DNA from: an uncultured Flavobacteriaceae bacterium
GTDB lineage: Bacteria; Bacteroidota; Bacteroidia; Flavobacteriales; Flavobacteriaceae
NCBI GenBank assembly: GCA_947487895.1
Contig: CANKYF010000001.1
Span: 434,001-498,000, forward strand
Reading direction: 5' to 3'
Length of the DNA stretch: 64,000 nt
The notes beneath the pieces were generated by a model. That model had not been told where the DNA came from. It searched no databases and was given only the letters and a program-made list of their open reading frames with translations. Both the position numbers and the translations under genes were made by a program. Below are positions 40,596 to 54,136 of this stretch, in pieces (within the stretch, counting starts at the first letter, position 1; every line of letters begins with the position of its first letter).

Positions 40596-42020
40596 ATGAT
40601 TCATACTGATACTATAGTAGCTTTGGCTACACCTTCGGGAGCAGGAGCTATTGCTGTTATACGTTTGTCCGGAAAAGAGGCTATATCAATAGCAGAGAAG
40701 CAATTTAAATCTGTTTCAGGTAAATTGCTTTCTAAACAAGCTACTCATACTATTCATTTAGGACATATAGTTGATGGAGATAGAACTCTAGATGAAGTAT
40801 TGGTATCAATATTTAAAGACCCCAATTCTTATACTGGAGAAAACGTTGTTGAGATATCTTGTCATGGCTCTAACTATATTCAGCAAGAGATTATTCAGCT
40901 ATTTTTAAGACAGGGTTGTAGAATGGCAACCGCTGGAGAATTTACGTTACGCGCTTTTTTAAATGGTAAGTTAGATTTAAGTCAAGCAGAAGCTGTGGCC
41001 GATTTAATTGCCAGTGATAACGAAGCATCTCACCAAATTGCTATGCAACAAATGCGTGGCGGATTTTCTTCTGAAATTGCTAAACTACGTGAAGAGCTAT
41101 TAAATTTTACGTCTTTAATTGAATTGGAACTAGATTTTGCAGAAGAGGATGTAGAATTTGCAGACAGAACCCAGTTTAAAGAGTTGATAGAAAGAATCAT
41201 GACGGTTTTAAAACGATTGATAGATTCTTTTGCTGTTGGTAATGTGATTAAAAATGGCATTCCTGTAGCTATAGTGGGTGAACCAAATGTAGGTAAATCT
41301 ACATTACTGAACGCCCTTTTAAATGAAGAACGTGCTATAGTTTCTGATATAGCAGGAACTACTAGAGATACTATTGAAGATGAAATATCTATAGGAGGTA
41401 TTGGGTTTCGATTTATTGATACTGCTGGGATTAGAGAAACTAAAGATGTGGTTGAAAGCATAGGTATTAAGCGTACTTTTGAAAAAATAGAACAAGCTCA
41501 AGTAGTTATCTATTTGTTTGAAGCAGATGTAATTTCCAACGATAGCAAGAAATCTCAAATACTAAAAGTTGAGATTGAAAGAATAAAAAATAAATACCCA
41601 CAAAAGCCACTAATTATTGTAGCTAATAAGTCTGATAAACTTTCAGAAATTCAAGCTGAGGGTTTAAGCAAGGAATTGACTGTCATTTCGAACGCTAGTG
41701 AGAAATCTCATTTTCAATTATTATCTGCTAAAACTAAAGAGGGGGTAGATACACTTAAAGATAAACTGCTAAGCTTTGTAAATACCGGAGCTTTAAAAAA
41801 TAATGATACCATTGTTACCAATACCAGGCATTACGACTCTCTTTTAAAAGCCTTAGAAGAAGTGTCTAAAGTTAAAGATGGCTTAGATACAGGACTATCT
41901 GGAGACTTGTTAGCTATAGATATTCGTCAGGCACTCTATTACTTTGGAGAAATTACAGGTGAAATCTCTAATGATGATTTATTAGGGAATATTTTCGCTA
42001 ATTTCTGTATCGGTAAGTAA
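40596..42020 (+). CDS. mnmE: tRNA uridine-5-carboxymethylaminomethyl(34) synthesis GTPase
   Basis: A 474-residue GTPase that, with MnmG, modifies the wobble uridine of several tRNAs. In order: N-terminal formyl-THF-binding domain (DTIVALATPSGAGAIAVIRLSG), helical domain, G domain with GEPNVGKSTLLNALL (P-loop), GTTRDTIED, DTAGIRET and NKSD, and the C-terminal Cys motif FCIGK. Between NKSD and the LSAK motif a stretch (TVISNASEKSHF) is encoded by a copy of a genomic repeat (41681-41710). The last 19 nt (42002-42020) form the left attachment repeat of the integrated element that follows. Confidence 0.97.
   Translation: MIHTDTIVALATPSGAGAIAVIRLSGKEAISIAEKQFKSVSGKLLSKQATHTIHLGHIVDGDRTLDEVLVSIFKDPNSYTGENVVEISCHGSNYIQQEIIQLFLRQGCRMATAGEFTLRAFLNGKLDLSQAEAVADLIASDNEASHQIAMQQMRGGFSSEIAKLREELLNFTSLIELELDFAEEDVEFADRTQFKELIERIMTVLKRLIDSFAVGNVIKNGIPVAIVGEPNVGKSTLLNALLNEERAIVSDIAGTTRDTIEDEISIGGIGFRFIDTAGIRETKDVVESIGIKRTFEKIEQAQVVIYLFEADVISNDSKKSQILKVEIERIKNKYPQKPLIIVANKSDKLSEIQAEGLSKELTVISNASEKSHFQLLSAKTKEGVDTLKDKLLSFVNTGALKNNDTIVTNTRHYDSLLKALEEVSKVKDGLDTGLSGDLLAIDIRQALYYFGEITGEISNDDLLGNIFANFCIGK
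41681..41710. repeat. TGTCATTTCGA...GAGAAATCTCA repeat, in frame inside mnmE
   Basis: TGTCATTTCGAACGCTAGTGAGAAATCTCA has the form of a repeat common between genes in flavobacteria (GTCATTTCGA...GAGAAATCTC). Here it is within the G domain and keeps the frame. Confidence 0.6.
42002..42020 (+). repeat. Left attachment repeat (attL)
   Basis: TTTCTGTATCGGTAAGTAA, the end of mnmE including its stop codon. It is an 18/19 match to 53878-53896. Confidence 0.85.
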
Positions 42021-42111
42021 TTGATTATCAGTAAAATATAATTAAAGCCAACAAAAGTCAATCTTTCCCTGAATTAAAATAACTCATTTTTACTTCCAAT
42101 ATTAGTATATA

Positions 42112-42260
42112 TACGTATTAAATAGGCTAATACGTGTACATTTTTTGTACCTCCAATTGTCATATCTCGTCCAAGCCTAATACTTTGGCCTTAATTGGAT
42201 AGATTATGATACCTCCAGAAACTCAGAGAAACCTTAGGAGACTTCTTGATACTATCCAAA
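42112..42260 (+). promoter_or_regulatory. Structured leader upstream of the zinc-finger/HTH gene
   Basis: Contains an 8-bp inverted repeat ACGTATTA (42113-42120) / TAATACGT (42128-42135) and a second TTGGATAG (42195-42202) / CTATCCAA (42252-42259). These may be integrase or excisionase binding sites, as they lie next to attL, or RNA hairpins in the leader. No gene lies in 42021-42299. Confidence 0.4.
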
Positions 42261-42299
42261 GATAAATTTTGAGATAGTTAAACCAAAACAATTAGTCGT

Positions 42300-42659
42300 A
42301 TGAGTTCCAATATCCGAATTAAAAGGATTTGCATGTATTGTGGTAAAGAATTTACCGCAAAAACTACAGTAACCAAATATTGTAGTCATAAATGTAATAG
42401 TAAAGATTATAAAAGAAAAATTAAGGAGTTAAAAATAAAAGTATCAGATAAGGATACGAATAAAATTGTACCTCAACATATTAAGAATCCAAAACTTAAT
42501 GAAAAAGAGATTCTATCCATAAAAGAAGTTTGTGAATTTGTAGGAATGAGTAAATCTTCTGTTTATAGATTGATTAATGATGAGGTAATAAATCCCATCA
42601 AAATTAGAAATCGGGTATTTATTTCGAGAGAAGAATTAAAAAAATTACTAAAAATTTAA
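42300..42659 (+). CDS. Zinc-finger plus HTH DNA-binding protein (excisionase family)
   Basis: A 119-residue protein. The N-terminus has a Cys4 zinc finger ([10 protein letters not shown] ... KYCSHKCNS, residues ~11-32). A basic lysine-rich linker follows, then a MerR/excisionase-type winged helix ([46 protein letters not shown]). Proteins like this commonly sit beside tyrosine recombinases of Bacteroidota elements and set the direction of recombination. It is the first gene inside attL. Confidence 0.82.
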
Positions 42660-42815
42660 ATTTTAACATTTTAACGAATATCCTGATAATGAGGGATTTG
42701 AATTTCAATCTCTTAATCTAAAATAAAGGGTAAGGCGTTGATAATTAATCTTTTAATTTAACAAAAAAGGCATTTTTGTTTCTTGCGAAGCGAATTCAAG
42801 ATAATTAAAGTCAAT

Positions 42816-43931
42816 ATGAAATCATCAAAAGTAACACTAAGATGGAGGATGCGTAAAGATGGATTAATGAAGATTGCAGTTTTAGATAAGTATCCCCCAA
42901 TTTTTAATTCTAGAACAGGGAAATATTCCCGAAATGAAACTATTAAGGGTATGTTGCTTTATGTAAAACCTAAAGATGAGCTAGAAAAACTACATAATAA
43001 AAACACTTTATTAAGAGCAAGAAAAATATGTGCAGAAAGGCAACAACAAATTTTTGATAACGATTTTGGGTTTTTAGCTTCTGATTTAGAGAATAAGGAC
43101 TTCCTAGTGTATTTTGAAAAATTAGCAAAAAGGAGGGGGATTAGTAGTTCTAGTCGTTCAACCTATCTTATCGTATTAGAATACCTAAAACAGCTTTCGC
43201 CAGAGGTTAAGATTAAGCACATTAATTTAAATTTTGTCAATAGTTTTAGGGAATACCTTTTATATAAACCTCATTTCAAAACCTTAAAACCTATTTCTCA
43301 AAATACAGCATCATCATATTTTTCTAAATTTATTTTCTCCTTAAAATTGGCATATAAAGAGGGATTACTTAAAGAAAATATAGCTCCTAAAATAGAAAGG
43401 ATTAAATGTATAGATACTAAAAGAGGGTATTTAACTAAGGAAGAAGCCATAAAACTAAAAGATACGCCTTGCAAAGATGAATTACAGAAACGTATATGCC
43501 TTTTCATGATCTATACGGGACTTAGAATTTCAGATGCAGAAAAACTCATTTGGGACGATTTAGAGCATTCCAGTGAAGTAGGCTATTATATACGTTTCCA
43601 ACATCAAAAGACTAGTACACAGCAAACCTTACCTATTAATGACGAGGCTTTCGCTTTACTTCCAGAACGAGGCGAACCCAATGATAGAATTTTTAAAGGT
43701 TTTAAGCGTAAATACAGACTTATAAAAAATTGGGCAAAAGAAGCAGGGGTTTCAAAAAATATAGGTTATCACATTTTTAGGCATTCATGCGCTACAATGT
43801 TGATTAATTCAGGTGTACCAATATTTACGGTAATGTCTATTCTAGGCCATAAAGAAGTGAAAACAACAATGAATTATGTCAATTTATTGGATAAGAATAA
43901 AGTTGATGCGGTGAAAACTATTAAGCTATGA
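42816..43931 (+). CDS. Tyrosine recombinase (integrase) of the mnmE element
   Basis: A 371-residue site-specific recombinase. It has an N-terminal arm-binding region (KVTLRWRMRKDGLMKI), a SAM-like core-binding domain (~90-195), and a catalytic domain with R237 (TGLRISD), HIFRHSC (H319, R322), H345 in GHKEVKTT and nucleophile Y354 (MNYVN). All catalytic residues are present, so it should be active. The ATG at 42816 fits the family start better than a TTG at 42783. It is expected to recombine the repeats at 42002 and 53878. Confidence 0.93.
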   Translation: MKSSKVTLRWRMRKDGLMKIAVLDKYPPIFNSRTGKYSRNETIKGMLLYVKPKDELEKLHNKNTLLRARKICAERQQQIFDNDFGFLASDLENKDFLVYFEKLAKRRGISSSSRSTYLIVLEYLKQLSPEVKIKHINLNFVNSFREYLLYKPHFKTLKPISQNTASSYFSKFIFSLKLAYKEGLLKENIAPKIERIKCIDTKRGYLTKEEAIKLKDTPCKDELQKRICLFMIYTGLRISDAEKLIWDDLEHSSEVGYYIRFQHQKTSTQQTLPINDEAFALLPERGEPNDRIFKGFKRKYRLIKNWAKEAGVSKNIGYHIFRHSCATMLINSGVPIFTVMSILGHKEVKTTMNYVNLLDKNKVDAVKTIKL

Positions 43932-43974
43932 ACTTAGCTAAACCGATGTATTAATTAACAAAAAAGAGATTATT

Positions 43975-44265
43975 ATGGAACAATTTTTCCTAATGTGTAA
44001 GCCTGACGAATTAAGAACTATTATCCGAGAGGAACTAAGTTCTTTAACCAAAAGTAAGACTAAACAAGAACCTACAAATGATGATGAGTATTTGGATATT
44101 AATATGGCATCAGGATTCTTAAAATTATCACCACACACTTTACGTCGTAAGGCACAAAAAAGTGAAATACCTTGTTATAAAAGAAATAACAAATGGCTAT
44201 TTTTAAGGAAAGAGCTTATTGATTATATAAACCAAGGCAAACAGTTAACTCATAGCGATTTATAA
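43975..44265 (+). CDS. Excisionase-like helix-turn-helix protein
   Basis: A 96-residue protein. Residues ~40-90 form an HTH_17/MerR-type winged helix (YLDINMASGFLKLSPHTLRRKAQKSEIPCYKRNNKWLFLRKELIDYI). The N-terminal ~35 residues are charged. It lies between the integrase and the putative Rep gene, 7 nt before the latter. The likely role is excision control or regulation of Rep. Confidence 0.8.
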   Translation: MEQFFLMCKPDELRTIIREELSSLTKSKTKQEPTNDDEYLDINMASGFLKLSPHTLRRKAQKSEIPCYKRNNKWLFLRKELIDYINQGKQLTHSDL

Positions 44266-44272
44266 CTAGTTT

Positions 44273-45208
44273 ATGATTGATGGAGTAGAATTTTATTATG
44301 AGAATGACTTTCTTGAATGGACAAATCCTATGCCTAAATTTTATGAGTGTAAAGGACTTCTATTTAGACCAATTTGGGGTAGTAGAGAAAATATTACTAA
44401 GTATACTGCTAAAGATGATTATGGCTTATTGCATGTAATAACTCCTAAAGAATATAAGATTAAAAACTCGATACATAAAGCTTACTCAAAAGCAATTGGG
44501 AAATCGGGTAATTGGTCAGGCTTTTCTTTTGCTGATTTTATTAAAATAGTGAATATACTTTCTAATAGATATAAGCTGGATCCTGCTAAGATTAATGTCA
44601 GAAAGTTGGAAATAGGACTTAATGTAGAGCTAAATGAGCCTTCAATGGAATATATAAGCTTAATCAAAGCTTTTAAGTTCACAAAACCTAGTGTTGATAT
44701 GAGAACTACGAGAAATATATTTTACGGTAGAAAGTTTTTCACAACGAATTATCAATTAAAAGTTTATGATAAGACAAGACAGGTCTTTGAAAAGGACAGG
44801 ATAGAAATTTCATCAAATATGATACGATTTGAAGCGGTTATCAAAAAAGTAAAACTAAAAGATTTGGGAGTTTTCACTTTAGCAGATTTAATTAATTATA
44901 GTAAGTTTTCAGTATTGGTAGACTTTCTACATGAAATGTTTTATGGAATCGCTTTTGAACGTAAATACGATGTATCTACTTTAACTGCAAATGAACTGGA
45001 GTTATATATAGCAGGAGCTAAACGTTTCTATTGGGTTAATTTACCCAAATGCAGCAGCCCTTCAACTGCTTCAAGGCGTAGAAAACAGTACAAAATTATT
45101 ATTACAAAATTAGATAAGGAAAACCCTTTTTCAAATCCCTTATTACTCGAATTACGAAAGAAAGTAGTAAAAAAAATCAATCAACTCTCAGTAGAGGGTT
45201 TCAACTAG
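44273..45208 (+). CDS. Putative rolling-circle-type replication initiator
   Basis: A 311-residue protein. INVRKLEIGLNVEL, FYGRKFFTTNYQLKVYDKTRQ and SNMIRFEAVIKKVKLKDLG follow the pattern of phage/plasmid Rep_trans and phage-X replication proteins (LEIxLNI..., Y-D-K, hR-h-E-h). I do not see a clear HUH pair, so the family call is tentative. In an integrated element it could replicate the excised circle. It is placed directly after the excisionase-like gene. Confidence 0.6.
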   Translation: MIDGVEFYYENDFLEWTNPMPKFYECKGLLFRPIWGSRENITKYTAKDDYGLLHVITPKEYKIKNSIHKAYSKAIGKSGNWSGFSFADFIKIVNILSNRYKLDPAKINVRKLEIGLNVELNEPSMEYISLIKAFKFTKPSVDMRTTRNIFYGRKFFTTNYQLKVYDKTRQVFEKDRIEISSNMIRFEAVIKKVKLKDLGVFTLADLINYSKFSVLVDFLHEMFYGIAFERKYDVSTLTANELELYIAGAKRFYWVNLPKCSSPSTASRRRKQYKIIITKLDKENPFSNPLLLELRKKVVKKINQLSVEGFN

Positions 45209-45263
45209 TAATATAACATAAGAACATATCAAATATGAAATTAAAACATAGAAACAATTTAAA

Positions 45264-45998
45264 ATGATTAAAACACAAAGGGAAATAGACGATACAAATT
45301 ATATCATATCAGAATTAGATTCCAGATTCGAATTCACATATAACTTATTTGAAGACTCGATATTATGGAACTACATCAACGGCTCAAGAGAATATAAATT
45401 AAAAGACGAATTCATAAGAGACCGAGTAGAAGAATTTGAATCAGAAGTAAAATATTTAAGTAGTTTCACCATTAAAGACGTTATCAAGTACCTAAGTATA
45501 AATAATAATATTATGATACAATATTTAGAAAGCTTAGAAGAGTGGAACCCTAATGATCCGAGTGAAATAAAAAAAGTATTATCGGGATTAACAGTTCATG
45601 ATCAAACTTATTTTGAGCGTCAATTCGAAAATTGGTTTTTATCTGTCATTAATATAGCATTATTTAAAGAACAAAATAAATCTAATATTCGATTCAAATA
45701 CAAAAGAGTTAAAAGTACTATTTCTAGTTTATGGTTTAATAAAGTTTTTCATCCCAAAATAAATGAATTATATAGGTTTACCCATGATTATTCGTTGTCT
45801 AATGAGCGATATGGTGAATCAAAAATAGAACTACATGATTTAATAATAAAAGACATTGATGAAAGCTTAGATTTTGAGACGGATAGAATATATTCTGAGG
45901 CTCTGTATAGGGTTTTAAAACAAAATAATCAACTGCATTTATATTCATGGTACAGCCATTCTGAAAATATACCAAAAAGACGTTTTATAGAAGTTTAG
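45264..45998 (+). CDS. Element protein of unknown function
   Basis: A 244-residue soluble, charged, mostly helical protein with no signal peptide or membrane segment. Notable stretches are SRFEFTYNLFEDSILWNYINGSREYKL and WYSHSENIPKRRFIEV. I do not recognise a family. Its place after the putative Rep suggests a mobile-element function (replication or regulation, RteC-like in size), but it could equally be cargo. A 23-bp imperfect palindrome follows the stop (46002-46024). Confidence 0.6.
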   Translation: MIKTQREIDDTNYIISELDSRFEFTYNLFEDSILWNYINGSREYKLKDEFIRDRVEEFESEVKYLSSFTIKDVIKYLSINNNIMIQYLESLEEWNPNDPSEIKKVLSGLTVHDQTYFERQFENWFLSVINIALFKEQNKSNIRFKYKRVKSTISSLWFNKVFHPKINELYRFTHDYSLSNERYGESKIELHDLIIKDIDESLDFETDRIYSEALYRVLKQNNQLHLYSWYSHSENIPKRRFIEV

Positions 45999-46614
45999 CG
46001 GTTAAGAAAATCATGATTTCTTAAAATCAAGGCAGAACTAAACAGATTCTATAAAAACCAGAATTTTGGAATCCAGAACTATTAATTTATGTTAATAGTG
46101 AGAAAGTTTTACAATTAGAAATATTAAAGCAAAAGAAGCCATTACGGCAGACTTAAATGATATATACATTATTCAAAAAGATTATACCTTATTATAAAGC
46201 GGACAATAAAAAGGAATCATTAGGTAATGTTAATGGTTATAAACAGGTTTTATTAAAACCTGAATTAAGCAACTTTAGGCTACTATCCTATGTTATCCTT
46301 TAGAAAGTTTTATGATTAAGAATATTAAAGTAGTGAAGTTTATTACATTTGTTATTACAACTATAAAAAGTTTATAAGAAGAAATTAAATAAAATAGAAA
46401 TATAAGTTAGCGTTAGCTATTTATTCTGAAGTTGAAAACTGGTAATTTTTAAAGATGCAGAAATGAATAGACTTAATGCTCACGTTATGGCGTGGGCTTA
46501 GTTTATCTGCATCGGGTATACCAGTACCTCAACTCAATAGACTACAGTCCCACGCTTATTTTTTTAATAACACTAACAGCTTTTAGGGACTGGAAGCATT
46601 TTTAAAGTCAGTTT
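45999..46614 (+). ncRNA. 616-bp noncoding stretch with nested hairpins, possible ncRNA or origin
   Basis: There is no credible gene. It contains a palindrome at 46002-46024, an 8-bp hairpin CAGGTTTT/AAAACCTG (46244-46262), and a dense structured block 46454-46591. In the block, GATGCAGA (46454-46461) pairs with TCTGCATC (46506-46513) around a GC hairpin GCTCACG/CGTGGGC (46478-46497). The same GCGTGGG can instead pair with CCCACGC (46549-46555), which precedes a T run. Short coding-like scraps (for example near 46124-46195) may be decayed sequence. Confidence 0.4.
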
Positions 46615-47472
46615 ATGAAAGTTGTAAAGTACATTTTAGCAGTTTTATTTTTTCTCATTGCTTTAGGAGCATTATTTAGCGGTTCGTTTTTATCATTTGT
46701 TTTTTCTACTATTTTGGGCTTGATGTTTATACCAGATATATCAGAAAGAATATCACGCAAGTATAAAATATGGAATAAAAGGGCATTTAGGTACTGTAGT
46801 TATATTTTACTTTTTATCATGGTTGGTTTATTTGCTGATGAGGTAAAACCTAGTAAATTAAGAAGTGCATCTGAAAAGAGTTTTGATGAAAAACAACAAG
46901 AAGCAATTGCGGAAATAAAACCAATTAAAGATTCATTAGACTTTGTGCTTAAAGAATACAATTTATCAGTTTGCCAAATCTATAAAGATGTATCAGAAAT
47001 TGAGAGAAAATCGATTAAGGATGCAGATAATAAATACCCTGATTTTGGTAAAAAGCACCTTGAATATTCTGAAAAGTCAAGAATCGAAAGAACCAAAGAA
47101 TATCAGATAAGGAAAGGCATATCAGAAGAGCTTTTGAATAAAGTTATTTTGTATTCTGATGAATGTTCAGAAAAGGAAAGACAGGAAAACATTAATAGAT
47201 TAAAAGAGCAGAAGCAAATACAGGCACTTAAAAAAGAAAAAATTGAAGATTGTTTTAGTGATGCATGTAGTTTAACTCGCAGAAAGATAAAAAGTGTAAT
47301 GCATAATCCTAAATCTTTCGAATATGTGGATTGCAAATATTTAGGAGCAGGGGAGAGTACATTTACTATTAGATACAGTTATAGAGGTCAAAATAAGTTA
47401 GGAGCTACTGTTTTAGAAAGTGTAAAAGCTGAAATTGATATCGGAAGATGTGAGGTTATTAAAATCGAATAG
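46615..47472 (+). CDS. Membrane protein of unknown function in the element
   Basis: A 285-residue protein. Residues 1-75 contain two or three hydrophobic helices (YILAVLFFLIALGALF, FLSFVFSTILGLMFI, YCSYILLFIMVGLFA). A charged helical middle follows (to ~215), then a C-terminal beta domain with SVMHNPKSFEYVDCKYL and FTIRYSYRGQNKLGATVLESVKAEID. That last domain, with its NPxSFE...YRGxNxxG pattern, occurs in several small bacterial membrane proteins without known role. A GNRA-loop terminator at 47501 separates it from the defence operon. Confidence 0.72.
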   Translation: MKVVKYILAVLFFLIALGALFSGSFLSFVFSTILGLMFIPDISERISRKYKIWNKRAFRYCSYILLFIMVGLFADEVKPSKLRSASEKSFDEKQQEAIAEIKPIKDSLDFVLKEYNLSVCQIYKDVSEIERKSIKDADNKYPDFGKKHLEYSEKSRIERTKEYQIRKGISEELLNKVILYSDECSEKERQENINRLKEQKQIQALKKEKIEDCFSDACSLTRRKIKSVMHNPKSFEYVDCKYLGAGESTFTIRYSYRGQNKLGATVLESVKAEIDIGRCEVIKIE

Positions 47473-47500
47473 TCAAGAATTAAATTTTGAAGTAACTACT

Positions 47501-47525
47501 AACACCTCGAAAGAGGTGTTTTTTT
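47501..47525 (+). terminator. Intrinsic terminator before the defence operon
   Basis: 8-bp stem AACACCTC / GAGGTGTT closed by GAAA and followed by T's (47501-47525). It insulates the operon starting at 47748. Confidence 0.85.
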
Positions 47526-47747
47526 ATGCGATTTTGGTCTTTCTGTATATGATTTGTACCTTTTATATACGAGTTAAGAGCAACTTATCATACTGGATCA
47601 ACACAGAACTAGAGTTTTTTATTTTCTGGTTCAGAAAGTTAAAAAAAATCTATAAGAGAATAATATAAATAGAGCAGAAACTTGGTTTTAAGGAAAATAC
47701 AAGATATAATTAGCAATCATCATTAAAAGTTAATAAATTCGCATTTA

Positions 47748-47972
47748 ATGCCTATTTTTATGAGTAAGAAAGCAATTAACAGGTTGAAAGTTGTCTTAGC
47801 AGAGAATGGAAAAACCAATAAATGGTTAGCCGAAAAGCTGAATAAAAATGAAACCACTATATCTAGATGGTGTACTAATGAAGTTCAGCCTTCATTAGAT
47901 ACTCTTTTGGAAATAGCCAATTTGTTTAGTATTGACGTAAAGAAATTAATTAATTCAACGTTAGAAGAATAA
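47748..47972 (+). CDS. XRE-family HTH regulator (candidate controller protein)
   Basis: A 74-residue DNA-binding protein consisting of one Cro/C1-type HTH: INRLKVVLAENGKTNKWLAEKLNKNETTISRWCTNEVQPSLDTLLEIANLFSIDVKKLI. Its stop TAA overlaps the methylase ATG by one base, so the two are translationally coupled. Small XRE proteins in this position often act as controller proteins that delay nuclease expression after entry into a new host. ATG 47748 and ATG 47760 are both possible starts. Confidence 0.88.
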   Translation: MPIFMSKKAINRLKVVLAENGKTNKWLAEKLNKNETTISRWCTNEVQPSLDTLLEIANLFSIDVKKLINSTLEE

Positions 47973-50278
47973 TGGGAATACAACTAAATAAAGAAAAGAA
48001 TAAAATATATGCTCCTTTATTAGGCAAGTGGGTACCATATTCATCTGAAGAAGAATTAAAGCAAAAATTTATCCATCGACTTACTGAAACGTATGGCTAT
48101 TCGTTAGATCAACTAGGTCAAGATGTAAAAGTAAAGAAACGATATGAAGCTGATATTGCCATTTGGCGAAGTAAATCAGACAAAGAAAAAAAATCTATCC
48201 CATCAATAATTATTACTGTTGAATGCAAAGCTGAAAACATAAGGATTAAAGAATCAGATTATTCAATCGGGTACAATTTTGCCTCATCTATCAATGCAAA
48301 TTTCTTTATCGCAGTAAACTTAAAAGAAACAAAAGTTTTTCACATTAAGAATGAAATTGCCTCAAAAAAAATAGAAAAACTAACAGAAATTCCCAAAGCA
48401 GAAATACTTACAAATAGCAAGAGAATTGACAAGTATGTTAATGATAATAAGCGATTTACACGGGAAGAGTTTACTAAATTATTGACAAGAAGTCATAACA
48501 TAATCAGGAATAATGATAAATTATCCCCAGAAGCTGCTTTTGATGAAATCAGTAAAATTTTGTTTATGAAAATAATGTATGAACGAAGTTCTACAAAAGA
48601 AATGATTTTTTCAAGAGATAAATTTAGAGCTGATGAAATTAATTATGAAGAGATTATACGTCCAGACTTAAAGAAAGATGCTCCACATTTGGATCAGGAC
48701 TACATGCAGTACCTTTTTAATAAAACTAAAAAGGCATTTGAAACAGATGGACTTTTTGAGTTTAAAGACCAAATTAAAATCAAAAAGAATAGTTTTGAAA
48801 TGATTGTTGAAGAATTAGAGATGTTCAATCTTTCAGACACTTCTGATGACGTTAAAGGAATTGCTTTTGAGCAATTTTTAGGAAAAACTTTTAGAGGTGA
48901 ATTAGGTCAATTTTTCACTCCAAGAACAATTGTCGATTTTATGATCGAAATTCTTGACCCACAAGAAGGAGAAACTATTTGTGATCCTTGTTGTGGTAGT
49001 GGTGGATTTTTAATTAGTGCTTTTGAATATATCAGAGATAGAATTGATATTGAAATAAATGACCAGATTAAAGAGATAAAGCATAAGTACTATAATGAAA
49101 ATTTTGAAAAACTCTCATTAAAAGAGCAACAGAAAGTTATCAGAAAAGTACAAGATAAAATTAGTAAAATAAACCAAGAATTCGACATCAATAATGAGAA
49201 GAGTAGATATCATAAACTTTCTCATTATAGTATTTATGGTACTGATGCAAATGCAAGGATGGCTAGAACGGCTAAAATGAATATGATAATGCACGGAGAT
49301 GGACATGGAGGTGTTCACCATAACGATGGATTATTGAATGTAAATGGGATTTTTGATGGTCGCTTTGATATAATACTTACCAATCCACCTTTTGGTTCTA
49401 GAGTAGAAAAGTCACTAAAGGTTACTGAATTAGACATACCCTCAAATGATAAACTAGATAAATATAAATCTAGATATCCGAACTATGAAGAAGAAGTTGT
49501 TGAGCCATTAAAAGAATGGGCAGGTTATATTAATAAAAAAGATAAGAGTAAAGGTAAACCAATTCTTAATTTGTTTGAAGTTGGTAAATGGAGTGCATTG
49601 ACAGAAGTATTATTCCTCGAAAGATGTTTGAATTTATTAAAACCTGGTGGACGTATGGGGATAGTTCTGCCAGAAGGGGTTTTAAATAATAGTAATTTAC
49701 AAAGAACAAGAGAATTTATTGAAGGTAAAGCTAAAATCATTTTGATTACTTCTATTCCTCAAGATGTATTTATAGCTAGCGGTGCAACAGTAAAGCCAAG
49801 TTTATTATTCTTTAAAAAATTCACAAAAAACGAAGCTGAAGAATATCAAAAAGTAGTATTAGAAGCTAAATTAGAAATCGAAAAAAAATATAGCTCAAAA
49901 ACTAACCCCATAAAAGATAAATTAAAAATAAGAGGAAAAGTTGCTCCAAATGCTTTAGGAAAAAAACGTTTACGAAAAGAGTTAAAGGAATTAAATTTAA
50001 AAATTGAATTAGAAATAAAAGCTAAAATAAAAACGGAATTTGATTACCAAATTCCCATCGCAGAAGTTGAAAAAGCAGGAATTAGTACCACAGGTGCTGA
50101 AATAGATAATGAATTGGAGCCTTTGGCAAAAGAATTTGTCAAGTATCGCAAAAAGAGTAGGTTGTGGGAAGAAAATTCAAATACAATAACATATTGTTCC
50201 GATAAGAACGGAACTCTTCGTAGATTTTTAATTACAAATTCTATAACAAAAGATTCAGAAATATTTTATGAAGAATAG
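47972..50278 (+). CDS. Nuclease-methyltransferase fusion: PD-(D/E)XK domain plus HsdM-type N6-adenine methylase
   Basis: A 768-residue restriction-modification polypeptide. The N-terminal ~150 residues form an HSDR_N-like nuclease domain with D61 (EADIAIW) and VECKAE (E84, K86), the PD-(D/E)XK signature. The HsdM helical region follows, then the gamma-class methylase with LGQFFTPRTIVDFMIE, DPCCGSGGF (338-346) and catalytic NPPFG (471-475). A charged C-terminal region (~590-768) includes a coiled coil. There is no helicase, and no hsdR gene lies in the window. The layout resembles BcgI-type IIB/IIG enzymes, where one chain cuts and methylates and a separate S subunit recognises DNA. Its stop overlaps the S gene by 11 nt. 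Cleavage activity is inferred. Confidence 0.87.
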   Translation: MGIQLNKEKNKIYAPLLGKWVPYSSEEELKQKFIHRLTETYGYSLDQLGQDVKVKKRYEADIAIWRSKSDKEKKSIPSIIITVECKAENIRIKESDYSIGYNFASSINANFFIAVNLKETKVFHIKNEIASKKIEKLTEIPKAEILTNSKRIDKYVNDNKRFTREEFTKLLTRSHNIIRNNDKLSPEAAFDEISKILFMKIMYERSSTKEMIFSRDKFRADEINYEEIIRPDLKKDAPHLDQDYMQYLFNKTKKAFETDGLFEFKDQIKIKKNSFEMIVEELEMFNLSDTSDDVKGIAFEQFLGKTFRGELGQFFTPRTIVDFMIEILDPQEGETICDPCCGSGGFLISAFEYIRDRIDIEINDQIKEIKHKYYNENFEKLSLKEQQKVIRKVQDKISKINQEFDINNEKSRYHKLSHYSIYGTDANARMARTAKMNMIMHGDGHGGVHHNDGLLNVNGIFDGRFDIILTNPPFGSRVEKSLKVTELDIPSNDKLDKYKSRYPNYEEEVVEPLKEWAGYINKKDKSKGKPILNLFEVGKWSALTEVLFLERCLNLLKPGGRMGIVLPEGVLNNSNLQRTREFIEGKAKIILITSIPQDVFIASGATVKPSLLFFKKFTKNEAEEYQKVVLEAKLEIEKKYSSKTNPIKDKLKIRGKVAPNALGKKRLRKELKELNLKIELEIKAKIKTEFDYQIPIAEVEKAGISTTGAEIDNELEPLAKEFVKYRKKSRLWEENSNTITYCSDKNGTLRRFLITNSITKDSEIFYEE

Positions 50279-51635
50279 TATAGAAATTGATTCTTATTTG
50301 AAGTTCACAAGCTTTAAAAGGCTGAAATTTTGGGATTATTATACTCTTAGTAATAAATCAAAAATTAACTCCAATTATCCTTTAGTAGAATTATCTGAAG
50401 TACTAACCCAAAGAAAAGATTCCATTATAATTGACGATACAAAATCCTATAAAAGGTGTAGAGTTAAGGTCAGGGGTCAAGGTATTGTACTTCGTGATGA
50501 AGTTTTAGGCAAAGAAATAAAAACAAAAAAACAATTTCTTTGTAAAGAAAAAGACTTTTTAGTAGCCGAAATTGATGCAAAAGTTGGGGGCTATGGTATA
50601 GTGCCTAAAGAATTAGTAAATGCAATTGTGAGTAGTCATTATTTTCTTTTTGAGATTGATAAAAACAAACTAAATCCAGAATTTTTATCGATTATTACTA
50701 AATGTGGTGCATTCTCAAAACAAGTAAAAGCGACAGGAAGTACAAATTATGCTGCAATAAGACCATATCACGTTTTGGAATACTTAATACCTCTTCCAAG
50801 TATTGAGAAACAAGATAAAATTGTAGCCTTATACAATAGAAGAATAAATTTAGCTGTAGAACAAAAGAAGAATTCGATTCAATTAGAAAAGGATATTGAA
50901 GATTATCTTTTAAGAGTTTTAAAAATTGAGAAATTAAAGAAAAAAGAAAATGCCAAAGGTTTACAGCTCATTTCTTTCAAAGAAGTAAGTAGATGGGATT
51001 CGTTATTTCTAATGGGTAGTATGCCCAAACTAAAATCTGGTTTTCCAATTAAAAAATTTACTAGTGTAATATCTTCTTTTAATAAGGGGAATAATGACGA
51101 GTCTTTAAGAATAAACTCCAGAGACTTTTCAAATGATGATTTTAAGTATATTGGAATGGAGCATATTGAAAAAGAGACGGGTAGACTTTTAGAACTGAAA
51201 GCAGTAAAAGGAAAAGAAATAAAAAGCCAAACGTTAAGAGTCCCAAAAGGGTATTTTTTATTTGGAAAACTGAGGCCTTATCTAAATAAATATTGGATTA
51301 ACCATACTGAAATTGAGAATATTATCTGTTCTTCGGAATTTTTCGTTTTTGATATAAATGATAGTGTCAACAAACTATTTTTCAAATACATTTTATCTTC
51401 CAGTTTTATTCAATCCCAAATATCAGAAAAAACAAGCGGAGCAAGAATGCCTAGGATAAATGAAGAAATATTTTTCAATTTACAATTCCCTTTACCGAAT
51501 AAACAACTTCAAGAGGAAATATCTCAATATATTACCAATTTAAAAAATCAAATAAAAGAATTAATAACTAAAGCTAAAGAAAACAAAAATAGAGCTCTTC
51601 TCGAATTTGAACAAGAAGTATTTAGGCCCTTATAA
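50268..51635 (+). CDS. Restriction-modification specificity subunit (HsdS-like)
   Basis: A 455-residue DNA-recognition subunit with two target-recognition domains, each followed by a helical spacer. TRD1 (~20-190) ends LIPLPSIEKQDKIVALYNRRINLAVEQKKN. TRD2 (~235-420) ends LQFPLPNKQLQEEISQYITNLKNQIKELI. Two TRDs imply a bipartite recognition site. It overlaps the nuclease-methylase by 11 nt and is followed after 2 nt by the PtuA-like ATPase, so all are in one operon. Sequence specificity cannot be read from the protein. Confidence 0.92.
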   Translation: MKNSIEIDSYLKFTSFKRLKFWDYYTLSNKSKINSNYPLVELSEVLTQRKDSIIIDDTKSYKRCRVKVRGQGIVLRDEVLGKEIKTKKQFLCKEKDFLVAEIDAKVGGYGIVPKELVNAIVSSHYFLFEIDKNKLNPEFLSIITKCGAFSKQVKATGSTNYAAIRPYHVLEYLIPLPSIEKQDKIVALYNRRINLAVEQKKNSIQLEKDIEDYLLRVLKIEKLKKKENAKGLQLISFKEVSRWDSLFLMGSMPKLKSGFPIKKFTSVISSFNKGNNDESLRINSRDFSNDDFKYIGMEHIEKETGRLLELKAVKGKEIKSQTLRVPKGYFLFGKLRPYLNKYWINHTEIENIICSSEFFVFDINDSVNKLFFKYILSSSFIQSQISEKTSGARMPRINEEIFFNLQFPLPNKQLQEEISQYITNLKNQIKELITKAKENKNRALLEFEQEVFRPL

Positions 51636-51637
51636 TT

Positions 51638-53146
51638 ATGCAACTAAAAAAAATATACATAAAGGACTATAAGATATTAAAGAACTTTACGATTGAGTTT
51701 CCATATGATTTCAAGCAATATATTTCGGTCTTAATTGGTACAAATGGCTCGGGAAAATCAACTATTTTAGAGGCGATTGCTCAAATTTTTAGTGATGTTT
51801 TTTTAAATGAAAAAGCAAAATTTGGTTTTGAGTTAGAATATTCAGTTTATCACGAACAAATAATAGAAGAAACGAGTATAAGTTCTGAATTTAATACTAC
51901 TTATTTATCTGCAAAGTTATCAGCAAATCAAAAAGGAGATACTATTCAAATAGAAACGTTTGACAAGAAAGGGAAAACTTTTAATAAAGTTGATATTCTT
52001 GAAAAGAATAAAATGGTTTTTGTTGTTGGCAAAAAAACTTTTTCATATTTACCAGATAATATTGTGATTTATTACTCAGGTTTATCTAAAATTATGGAGA
52101 AGTTGGTTGAACCGCATAATGATATAATTTCTGGTGCATATAGAAAAAATAACATTTTAAAAGAACGAGACTTTTTCTATTTTCAACCAGAGCATTTCGG
52201 TATTATCCTAACAAGCCTACTCTCTTTTGAATATGGTGATATTCCGAACTTCTTAAGAACAAAAGCAAAAATCAATAGTGTTCAAAGTATTCAGATAAGA
52301 TTACAAAGGCCGGAATGGGCAAAAGATACAATACAAAATTTTTGGGGAGCAGAAGGGGAAGTAAGAAATTTTTTAAATTATTTAAATGAAAAATCAGCAA
52401 CTTCTGAGGATTTAGTAAATCCTGATAAATCAAAAGGAATTGGAAATATTGTAATTGAAGCTTTGCAAGATGAAATCATCAATATAACTATTCTTACGCA
52501 AGAAAGACTTTTTGAAATTCGTAATCACTTAATTGAGGAAAGAAAACTCTTTGAAATTCTAAATATTCTTTTTACGGATGGTATGTTGAAAGATATCTCT
52601 TTTGCATTAAAAAAAGAAGGAGAAGAATATAAGACTTTTGGTGTTCTAAGTGAAGGTGAACAGCAAGCAATAATTATTAAGGGACTAACAGAGTTACTTT
52701 CAGAGAAAAATTCTCTTTTCCTTTTTGATGAGCCTGATACATATTTACACCCTAAGTGGCAACGACAATTTATTGCTGATATTGAAGATACAATAGATTC
52801 TTATTCTGAAAATTCATTTGTAATAGCAACGCACTCTCCTCAACTATTAAGCAATGCAAAGTCTGATCTCAATTTTGTGAAAATTATTGAGGAAGGAGAA
52901 TTGATAGAAAATACACCCAAGTATTATGGTAGAGAGATAAACTCAATTTTATATGATTTGATGGGGGTTGAAGATCGAAATAAACTAGTAAGAGAAAAGA
53001 TAAGTGATTTATATACACTTATTGCAGAGGAAGAAGTAGATGAAGCAGAAGATTCATTAAAAGATTTACAAGGTCTTATAGGAAAAGATGATCCTGAATT
53101 AAAAAGAGCTGAAATTCAAATTACTTATTTAAAAGAGGACGAATGA
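51638..53146 (+). CDS. ptuA: Septu-type ATPase (PtuA-like)
   Basis: A 502-residue SMC/ABC-type ATPase. N-terminal Walker A GTNGSGKS is at 34-41. The insert carries no strong coiled coil. The C-terminal half has the signature LSEGEQQ (337-343), Walker B LFLFDEPDTYLHP (D364, E365) and the His switch IATHSPQLL. The last ~80 residues are helical and acidic. An ATPase of this type followed by an HNH protein with a 4-nt overlap is the PtuA-PtuB arrangement of the Septu anti-phage system, where PtuA senses and PtuB cuts. It is fused to an RM operon here. OLD-like or Rlo-type roles are alternatives. Confidence 0.85.
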   Translation: MQLKKIYIKDYKILKNFTIEFPYDFKQYISVLIGTNGSGKSTILEAIAQIFSDVFLNEKAKFGFELEYSVYHEQIIEETSISSEFNTTYLSAKLSANQKGDTIQIETFDKKGKTFNKVDILEKNKMVFVVGKKTFSYLPDNIVIYYSGLSKIMEKLVEPHNDIISGAYRKNNILKERDFFYFQPEHFGIILTSLLSFEYGDIPNFLRTKAKINSVQSIQIRLQRPEWAKDTIQNFWGAEGEVRNFLNYLNEKSATSEDLVNPDKSKGIGNIVIEALQDEIINITILTQERLFEIRNHLIEERKLFEILNILFTDGMLKDISFALKKEGEEYKTFGVLSEGEQQAIIIKGLTELLSEKNSLFLFDEPDTYLHPKWQRQFIADIEDTIDSYSENSFVIATHSPQLLSNAKSDLNFVKIIEEGELIENTPKYYGREINSILYDLMGVEDRNKLVREKISDLYTLIAEEEVDEAEDSLKDLQGLIGKDDPELKRAEIQITYLKEDE

Positions 53147-53799
53147 AGGCTATAGTCAAAGTAAAAGAGCCTACTTCTTTAACTGAACATAGGGCAAGGC
53201 AACACTCATCTTATACAAATTTAGATAAAACCGACACAAGAAACTCGCTATTGACTGAGCAAGGTCATATCTGTTGTTATTGTATGAGACGTATTCCAGA
53301 GTCTGGAAATACCCCAGGTACTAAGATTGAACATTTTTTATGTCAAGAAGATCATTCGCATGAGGAATTAAATTATGGAAATATGCTTTTAGCTTGTTTA
53401 GGTAATGAGGGATCTCCGAAAAGATTACAAACATGCGATACAAAAAAAGGAAAGCTTAGTTTAACTCATTCCCCTTCTAATCAAGCTAGAAATATAGAGA
53501 GTCTAATAAAATATAAACCCAACGGAGAAATTTACTCTTCAGATGAAACTTTTAATGCAGAATTGGAAACAGTTCTAAATTTGAACGTAAAAAGTTTAAA
53601 AGACAACAGAAGAATAGTTTACGAAGAGGTGCAAAATAGAATTAGATTAGAGGGAAAACGAAAAGGGAGTATTGCCTTAAAGAAAAAATTCTTAGAATTA
53701 GAAAAGGCAAAATTACTCAGTTTAACAAATGGGAAGCATAATCAATTTTGTATGGTAGGTGTTTACGTGATTGAAAAAAAATTAAAGAAGCTTAATTAA
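53143..53799 (+). CDS. ptuB: HNH endonuclease (PtuB-like)
   Basis: A 218-residue nuclease with a zinc site HICCYCMRRIPE (C44, C47), HNH core KIEHFLCQ (H64), LNYGNMLLAC (Asn ~77-80) and CDTKKG (Cys98). This is the TIGR02646-type HNH family found with Septu and retron-Septu ATPases. The start ATG overlaps the ptuA stop (ATGA). It is the last gene of the element, ending 79 nt before the right attachment repeat. Nuclease activity is expected on phage-sensed activation. Confidence 0.87.
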   Translation: MKAIVKVKEPTSLTEHRARQHSSYTNLDKTDTRNSLLTEQGHICCYCMRRIPESGNTPGTKIEHFLCQEDHSHEELNYGNMLLACLGNEGSPKRLQTCDTKKGKLSLTHSPSNQARNIESLIKYKPNGEIYSSDETFNAELETVLNLNVKSLKDNRRIVYEEVQNRIRLEGKRKGSIALKKKFLELEKAKLLSLTNGKHNQFCMVGVYVIEKKLKKLN

Positions 53800-54136
53800 T
53801 ATTTCCCCTATTTGTATCCTTATGATTCTAAAAGGTTAATAGGTGCTGGTTTTCAATGCTTTTGAAAGTAGGTTTACTTTCTGTATCGGGAAGTAAACTT
53901 TTTTCTCTTGTTTTTGATATAAATTTAGGAAAAAAGAAGACCATGCTTTAAGTTAAAGAGAGAATCAGGAGATTTTTCAAATGCTAGTGAGTTCTTTATA
54001 AATACTTTTACATTGGACTTAAGAGTCGAAATTGAAAAAGCGGGGATGTGGCAAGATGATATACTCTGTTACATCATTACTACTATAATCAATCACAAAG
54101 GTAAATAAAGGATAAACGTTGTAAATTTTATAGACC
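53800..54136. other. Element/host junction region, 337 bp
   Basis: Holds the right attachment repeat (53878-53896). The remainder to 54136 should be the original DNA downstream of mnmE and contains only short broken reading frames. I see no RNA gene. Confidence 0.5.
53878..53896 (+). repeat. Right attachment repeat (attR)
   Basis: TTTCTGTATCGGGAAGTAA, an 18/19 match to the mnmE end at 42002-42020. It still encodes FCIGK-stop. Confidence 0.85.

Follow-up and report, generated by a model that had tools for sequence, protein, structure and literature searches.

A restriction-modification operon from a Flavobacteriaceae bacterium with a PtuAB-like pair in a slot of variable content behind the specificity gene

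Introduction

Type IIB restriction-modification (RM) enzymes are described as two proteins, RM and S (the specificity subunit). PrrC, an ABC-ATPase ribonuclease, is silenced by its type Ic RM system; it is kept sequestered in the type I enzyme until T4 infection releases it (PMC3874165), and its silencing by the RM system and its ABC-ATPase N-domain have been described (PMC3874168). PrrC-like multi-pronged RM-RNase loci were proposed in 2013 (PMC3710099). A further source places DarTG2 between hsdS and hsdR and also notes that Septu occurs inside Hma systems (PMC12255303). In PARIS (AriA-AriB), an anti-restriction protein triggers an OLD-ABC protein and a nuclease, and PtuAB of Septu and of retron-Eco7 leads to tRNA-Tyr cleavage. 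The present analysis concerns a 64,000-nt stretch of DNA (the window) from an uncultured Flavobacteriaceae bacterium (contig CANKYF010000001.1, positions 434,001 to 498,000), in which genes for a nuclease-methylase fusion and an S subunit are followed by genes for a PtuA-like ATPase and a PtuB-like nuclease.

Results

Gene content and closest relatives of the operon

The operon occupies positions 47748..53799 of the window and consists of five genes on the plus strand, identified from open reading frames (ORFs) and by Pfam and PADLOC searches. The first gene (47748..47972) encodes a Cro/C1-type HTH regulator of 74 amino acids (aa) that matches HTH_3 (2.1e-8) and HTH_26 (2.3e-8). It is followed by the gene of the RM chassis (47972..50278), a 768-aa fusion of an HSDR_N nuclease and an N6-adenine methylase (HSDR_N_2, 1e-15; N6_Mtase, 1.4e-37; PADLOC MTase_I PDLC03018, 1038 bits), and by a gene (50268..51635) for an HsdS-like specificity subunit of 455 aa with two target-recognition stretches, both found by Methylase_S (2e-14). 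The last two genes encode a PtuA-like OLD-type ABC ATPase of 502 aa (51638..53146; AAA_21, 4e-21, and AAA_15; PADLOC PtuA PDLC00293, 241 bits, 6.3e-72) and a PtuB-like HNH nuclease of 218 aa (53143..53799; PADLOC PtuB PDLC00322, 215 bits, 2.1e-64). From first to last, the genes are joined by a 1-nt overlap, an 11-nt overlap, a 2-nt gap and a 4-nt overlap. An earlier note on this DNA had described the same five-gene operon, and its coordinates, overlaps and gap were all confirmed from the ORFs. The note also stated that the genes are expressed as a unit; the close spacing stands, and joint expression is a plausible reading of that spacing.

Loci compared with the window are cited here by L numbers. 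The closest whole-operon relatives are L032, in which all five genes are present (identities of 88% for the HTH protein, 77% for the methylase, 49% for S, 86% for PtuA and 79% for PtuB), and L043, which has the same genes. In L043, as in L050, roughly half an S is joined to the methylase in one protein; the ATPase gene is still directly next. L054 carries an HTH gene of the same cluster as that of the window, together with methylase, S, ATPase and HNH genes.

Linkage of the ATPase gene to the methylase-S pair

Methylase relatives were picked by methylase similarity in genome contigs, and the best 80 of 393 confirmed places were analyzed (59 from Bacteroidota, 7 unassigned). Sixty-six of these loci were countable, with a full or fused S and a contig reaching at least 900 nt further; 14 of the 80 were left out because S or the following stretch was missing. 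An ABC ATPase was encoded within the three next same-strand genes after S in 52 of the 66 countable loci (directly next in 45) and not in the remaining 14, as counted with ATPase profiles that were built from the counted set itself and favor detection there. The control comprised 40 HsdS loci from 34 genomes. They were taken by rank of score in a search across 148 Bacteroidota genomes, with two of the initial 42 distinct S places discarded because they lay at contig edges; L164, which gave no match with the profiles, was kept. A strong ATPase match was found in one control locus (L169), and three more gave weak ABC matches (L153, L154, and L156). The Fisher p value for the difference was 1e-15, or 2.4e-12 when the three weak matches were counted. 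The spacing between S and the ATPase gene was mostly -4 or +2 nt. The coupling of PtuAB to the RM genes claimed in the earlier note therefore holds for ATPase co-occurrence, which lies above the background of general HsdS loci, and the same control rules out that the genes are chance neighbors in a defense island.

Exchange of effectors behind S

For the gene slot behind S, 84 loci were compared, namely, the 80 methylase loci, three loci from a genome search and the window. The slot holds an ATPase with an HNH nuclease in 22 loci, an ATPase with a C-terminal OLD-like TOPRIM domain in 28 and an ATPase with neither recognized in 2. Other genes follow S in 11 loci, a class that includes L118 (ATPase in two ORFs) and L058 (nearly cut), and 21 loci fall into a class that mixes contig ends with loci without a follower. 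The TOPRIM residues EG..D and DxD were present in all 24 aligned sequences. Directly or nearly after S, GHKL plus DUF4325 (L059), TIR (L108) and Fic (L053) proteins are encoded; the slot protein of L061 shares a cluster with a member from L060 that matches FokI, and in L083 methylase and S are separated by a YhcG nuclease gene. The earlier note had treated PtuAB as the partner of the RM genes. Instead, the partner is a slot open to HNH, TOPRIM and other effectors, and a fixed RM-PtuAB composite is ruled out by the variation.

The effectors have been exchanged repeatedly, with at least 11 changes between HNH and TOPRIM on the methylase tree. Three close pairs show where the exchange occurs. L080 and L085 share the upstream flank (92%) and the methylase gene (90% DNA identity) and diverge from S on, one carrying PtuA plus HNH and the other a TOPRIM ATPase. 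L052 and L054 match at 95% identity through the methylase gene, with no DNA match thereafter over S, ATPase and nuclease. In L067 and L071 the ATPase is kept (97%), and the difference lies within S. These pairs indicate that S and effector are exchanged together or apart. The swapping of the second part suggests one immune platform that is fitted with different back-up weapons.

Further genes were observed in or near the slot. Related proteins of 818 to 876 aa occupy it in L113, L115 and L119; those of L113 and L119 were searched against Pfam, with no match above the cut-off. A conserved 144-aa gene lies between S and PtuA in L046, L062 and L122, and L046 and L122 have also lost the nuclease glutamate of the methylase. 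A protein of 275 to 276 aa recurs after the effectors in eight loci, mostly gut-derived (L059, L066, L080, L083, L089, L095, L099, and L108); the one tested (L059) gave matches to DUF4357 and RAMA and a weak match to GIY-YIG.

ATPase lineage and ordinary HsdM/HsdS loci

In the ATPase tree, 49 of 50 S-linked sequences form one group (SH-aLRT 81, which is not strong), and none of the 14 sequences without S falls inside it. The lineage of the window ATPase is thus mainly RM linked. The trees were quick ones without bootstrap. The methylase-family ATPases had been chosen for their linkage; among the 49, 14 come from HsdM/S loci and were found by ATPase similarity. The TOPRIM sequences were thinned to 10 of 28, and the short-contig ATPases of L125, L126 and L133 were left out. 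For the sequences without S, the search was by similarity to the window ATPase, and one of them, L190, has a methylase gene nearby.

Related ATPases also follow S in 15 ordinary HsdM/HsdS loci. HsdR is present in seven of these (L124, L127, L130, L131, L135, L180, and L193; confirmed by Pfam for L130 and L135), so the ATPase module has been added to complete type I systems too. An HNH-type next gene was recognized in L037, L132 and L135; in the other loci, the next gene is unassigned or absent. L193, on an Enterobacter plasmid, has the gene order S-M-S-ATPase-hypothetical-HsdR, and its Septu-type ATPase lies between S and HsdR, the place taken by DarTG2 in another locus (PMC12255303). Plasmid records with a PtuA relative numbered 44; the 17 examined included 8 in which the relative was S linked.

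The source genome has Methylase_S matches at two loci, both with an ATPase and a PtuB-like gene; two of the three matches fall in the window HsdS. The second locus (L037, contig C2) has the order HsdM-HsdS-PtuA-like-PtuB-like, with no HsdR within 18 kb, and lies beside what appears by eye to be a conjugation cluster. A different setting was observed on an Arcobacter cloacae plasmid (L185, 3197-5436), where a type I-B cas operon, as annotated, contains genes for a PtuA-like ATPase and a 241-aa protein between cas6 and cas7. The 241-aa protein and a 564-aa neighbor gave no Pfam match.

Conserved residues of the RM chassis and of the PtuA/PtuB module

The nuclease-signature residues D61, E84 and K86 of the fusion are conserved in 84, 80 and 83 of the 84 methylase sequences, respectively, and the methylase motifs GSGGF (342-346) and NPPF (471-474) are kept in all 84. 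The best solved relatives of the fusion are type I M subunits and RM.BsaXI (8w0p). Because the catalytic residues are kept and the solved relatives include RM.BsaXI, the methylase-S pair has the appearance of an active type IIB-like RM enzyme, for which cutting would be expected from the sequence. Ten loci on viral contigs (L222, L223, L225-L228, and L230-L233), several of which may be near-copies, encode methylase relatives of 40 to 49% identity together with S, and no ABC ATPase was detected in these ten loci. The methylase-S pair can therefore exist without the effector. In L227, L228 and L230, a protein of 469 to 471 aa without an assigned family is encoded nearby.

The window ATPase has a Walker A motif (34-41), the signature LSEGEQ (337-342), the Walker B motif LFDEPD (362-367) and H399. 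Residues K40, S338, G340, D364, E365 and H399 are conserved in all 37 ATPases of the HNH type or linked to HsdM/S. The 218-aa PtuB-like protein gave no match in Pfam. Its assignment to PtuB is borne out by a profile from an alignment of 20 sequences, which found the solved Septu PtuB 8ee7 at 1.1e-28, followed by retron HNH nucleases. H64 and N80 are invariant in the 20 aligned sequences; Septu EcB88 needs H75 and N91 (PMC13096335). The curated NCBIfam cut-offs of the retron Ec78 models were not reached by PtuA (100.9 of 500) or PtuB (88.8 of 150), nor was that of TIGR02646 by the window protein (45.9 of 52.15). In a phage collection, 7 records matched PtuA and 5 matched PtuB, all as distant partial matches and none covering 80% of the query.

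Mobile context at mnmE

The operon appears to be cargo of a putative 11.9-kb integrative element (42002-53889) at the 3' end of mnmE. The mnmE gene, assigned by its MnmE domains, extends over 40596-42020, and a tyrosine integrase gene lies just after it (42783..43931, plus strand; Phage_integrase, 4.4e-24). The candidate left attachment repeat (42002..42013), in the 3' end of mnmE, and the candidate right repeat (53878..53889) form a 12-nt exact direct repeat, obtained from an exact-match search; a general repeat search gave weak families only. The right repeat is overlapped by a terminator-like hairpin 3' of ptuB (53870..53900, plus strand), a consensus match only, with a 14-pair stem followed by a T run. 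Between the repeats, the putative element carries the integrase gene, an HTH_17 gene, genes for proteins of 311, 244 and 285 aa without Pfam matches, and then the operon. Eight plus-strand mnmE loci of 14 were compared, the minus-strand loci (L202, L203, and L206-L209) being left out as showing the wrong end of mnmE. An integrase homologue lies at most 1.5 kb after mnmE in the source genome, L197, L201 and L204, and none was found within that distance in L198, L199, L200 and L205.

Discussion

The analysis favors, with a probability of about 0.48, a reading in which a type IIB-like RM pair carries a second-line effector that can be exchanged and PtuAB would be gated by the RM pair as a guard of the PrrC/PARIS kind. 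We infer restriction activity, gating, trigger and substrate as follows. The methylase-nuclease fusion and HsdS would mark self DNA and cut unmarked DNA. The PtuA ATPase and the PtuB HNH nuclease would form the second-line effector, tied to the RM pair by operon position and lineage. An intact RM complex would most likely keep PtuAB silent, and a phage that blocks or overwhelms the RM system may let PtuAB loose. Cleavage of tRNA or DNA by freed PtuAB would then halt the infection, in the manner of PrrC beside EcoprrI. The earlier note had already proposed, as one of two options, that PtuAB backs up the RM system when phages block restriction. The PrrC and PARIS precedent fits this role, and the gating is its conjectural part.

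Several observations weigh against RM gating of PtuAB. The S-linked group of ATPases has limited support, and most of its members were picked by linkage. The counting profiles were built from the counted loci, which favors detection there. The ATPase of L193 sits outside this group, among PtuA sequences without S, and was therefore recruited independently. In 8 of the 15 HsdM/HsdS loci (L037, L123, L132, L179, L181, L184, L186, and L194), no HsdR was found within stretches of 8 to 18 kb, which leaves no known restriction there to guard. The nuclease signature (D-ExK) is lost in 4 of the 84 methylases (L044, L046, L076, and L122), with the effector still present. A search for co-evolution between the ATPase and either methylase or S gave a weak signal at best. 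For the HNH type (21 loci), the distance correlation was 0.11 between methylase and ATPase (p 0.18) and 0.12 between S and ATPase (p 0.12); for the TOPRIM type (27 loci), the values were 0.18 (p 0.02) and 0.09 (p 0.05). These weak correlations argue against a fine-tuned interface or tight co-adaptation.

Some of these points are better accommodated if the methylase-S complex on an unmethylated site senses non-self and then recruits and activates PtuAB as the main cutter in the place of HsdR, an explanation that is nevertheless less likely. The eight HsdM/HsdS loci with the ATPase and no HsdR fit it better, as does the effector kept beside methylases that lost D-ExK, and HsdR-like genes are rare near the 80 methylase loci (one strong match, L112, adjacent to a further methylase gene, and weaker ones in L076 and L079). 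However, a recruited cutter accords poorly with the fusion's own nuclease signature, which most methylases keep, with the methylase-S pairs of the viral contigs, with the ATPases that stand beside HsdR in 7 of the 15 loci and with the small co-evolution signal. Still less likely, and indeed unlikely, is an insertion hot spot 3' of S at which separate defense systems are carried for joint transfer: free exchange with little cophylogeny, the unrelated TIR, GHKL, Fic and FokI effectors, the putative mobile element and the known position of DarTG2 and of another pair between hsdS and hsdR (PMC12255303) agree with it, but the lineage with 49 of the 50 S-linked ATPases, 14 of them found by ATPase similarity, contains no sequence without S in the sample, the slot keeps a tight, partly overlapping spacing, and the 40 general HsdS loci gave only one strong ATPase match.

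Gating of PtuAB by the RM pair can be extended to a broader claim, which is doubtful at present: one conserved methylase-S chassis may be an interchangeable sensor that licenses many toxic effectors (ABC-HNH, ABC-TOPRIM, GHKL, TIR, FokI, and Fic) in one slot behind S. Lineages would swap target-recognition domains and effectors separately, so that any sequence specificity could be combined with any mode of killing. Were the effector under the control of the RM pair, restriction enzymes would be sensors for exchangeable abortive effectors, besides being cutters; CBASS offers a comparison for such effectors. The natural pairs in which methylases of 90 to 95% DNA identity carry different effectors make gating directly testable, with one chassis and two effectors.

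Comparison with known systems

By sequence, the operon resembles type IIB RM systems (BcgI and BsaXI) in its nuclease-methylase fusion, with a PD-(D/E)xK-type nuclease and an N6-methylase, and in its separate S with two target-recognition domains; it differs in the ATPase and nuclease genes added after S. From type I RM systems it differs in HsdR: none with an SF2 motor was found among the operon genes, and no ResIII match lies beside either S locus of the genome. MADS has an eight-gene make-up. The methylase, ATPase and S of the window show family similarity to MADS proteins, whereas this gene make-up is not present at the operon, and membership was ruled out by MAD2, MAD3 and MAD5 scores far below the cut-offs (278.6 of 720, 37.1 of 420, and 35.9 of 400). 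PARIS also combines an OLD-type ABC ATPase with a nuclease, but its nuclease is a TOPRIM protein, and to our knowledge PARIS is usually absent from RM operons.

With the PtuAB proteins of Septu and retron I-A, the operon shares an ABC ATPase whose Walker and signature motifs are intact and an adjacent HNH nuclease gene; H64 and N80 are 16 residues apart, as are H75 and N91 of Septu EcB88. In contrast to Septu, the pair stands behind a methylase-S pair, and its ATPase belongs to a mainly RM-linked lineage. EcoprrI-PrrC is comparable in having an ABC-ATPase RNase gene within an RM operon, with a second-line role that PtuAB would likewise have. PrrC is a single protein that includes a HEPN-type ribonuclease, whereas the operon has an HNH nuclease in a separate gene and no HsdR, and the 502-aa ATPase gave no HEPN-type anticodon nuclease match in the Pfam search, the one search made for it.

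Exchange of effectors on an HSDR_N-methylase/S chassis was not found within the literature searched. NCBI family TIGR04435 is called "restriction system-associated AAA family ATPase," and L181 and L194 carry it in their NCBI annotation. The earlier note's candidate "undescribed composite system" was thus too strong, since related ATPases already bear this name. The window ATPase scores below the TIGR04435 cut-off (102.7 of 300 bits), and the methylase of L181 and L194 is a shorter HsdM-type protein. The gene order methylase-S-ATPase-next gene is the same in these loci and in the window, and the operon is a variant of a theme already described under TIGR04435 and in papers on ABC-ATPase-linked RM systems.

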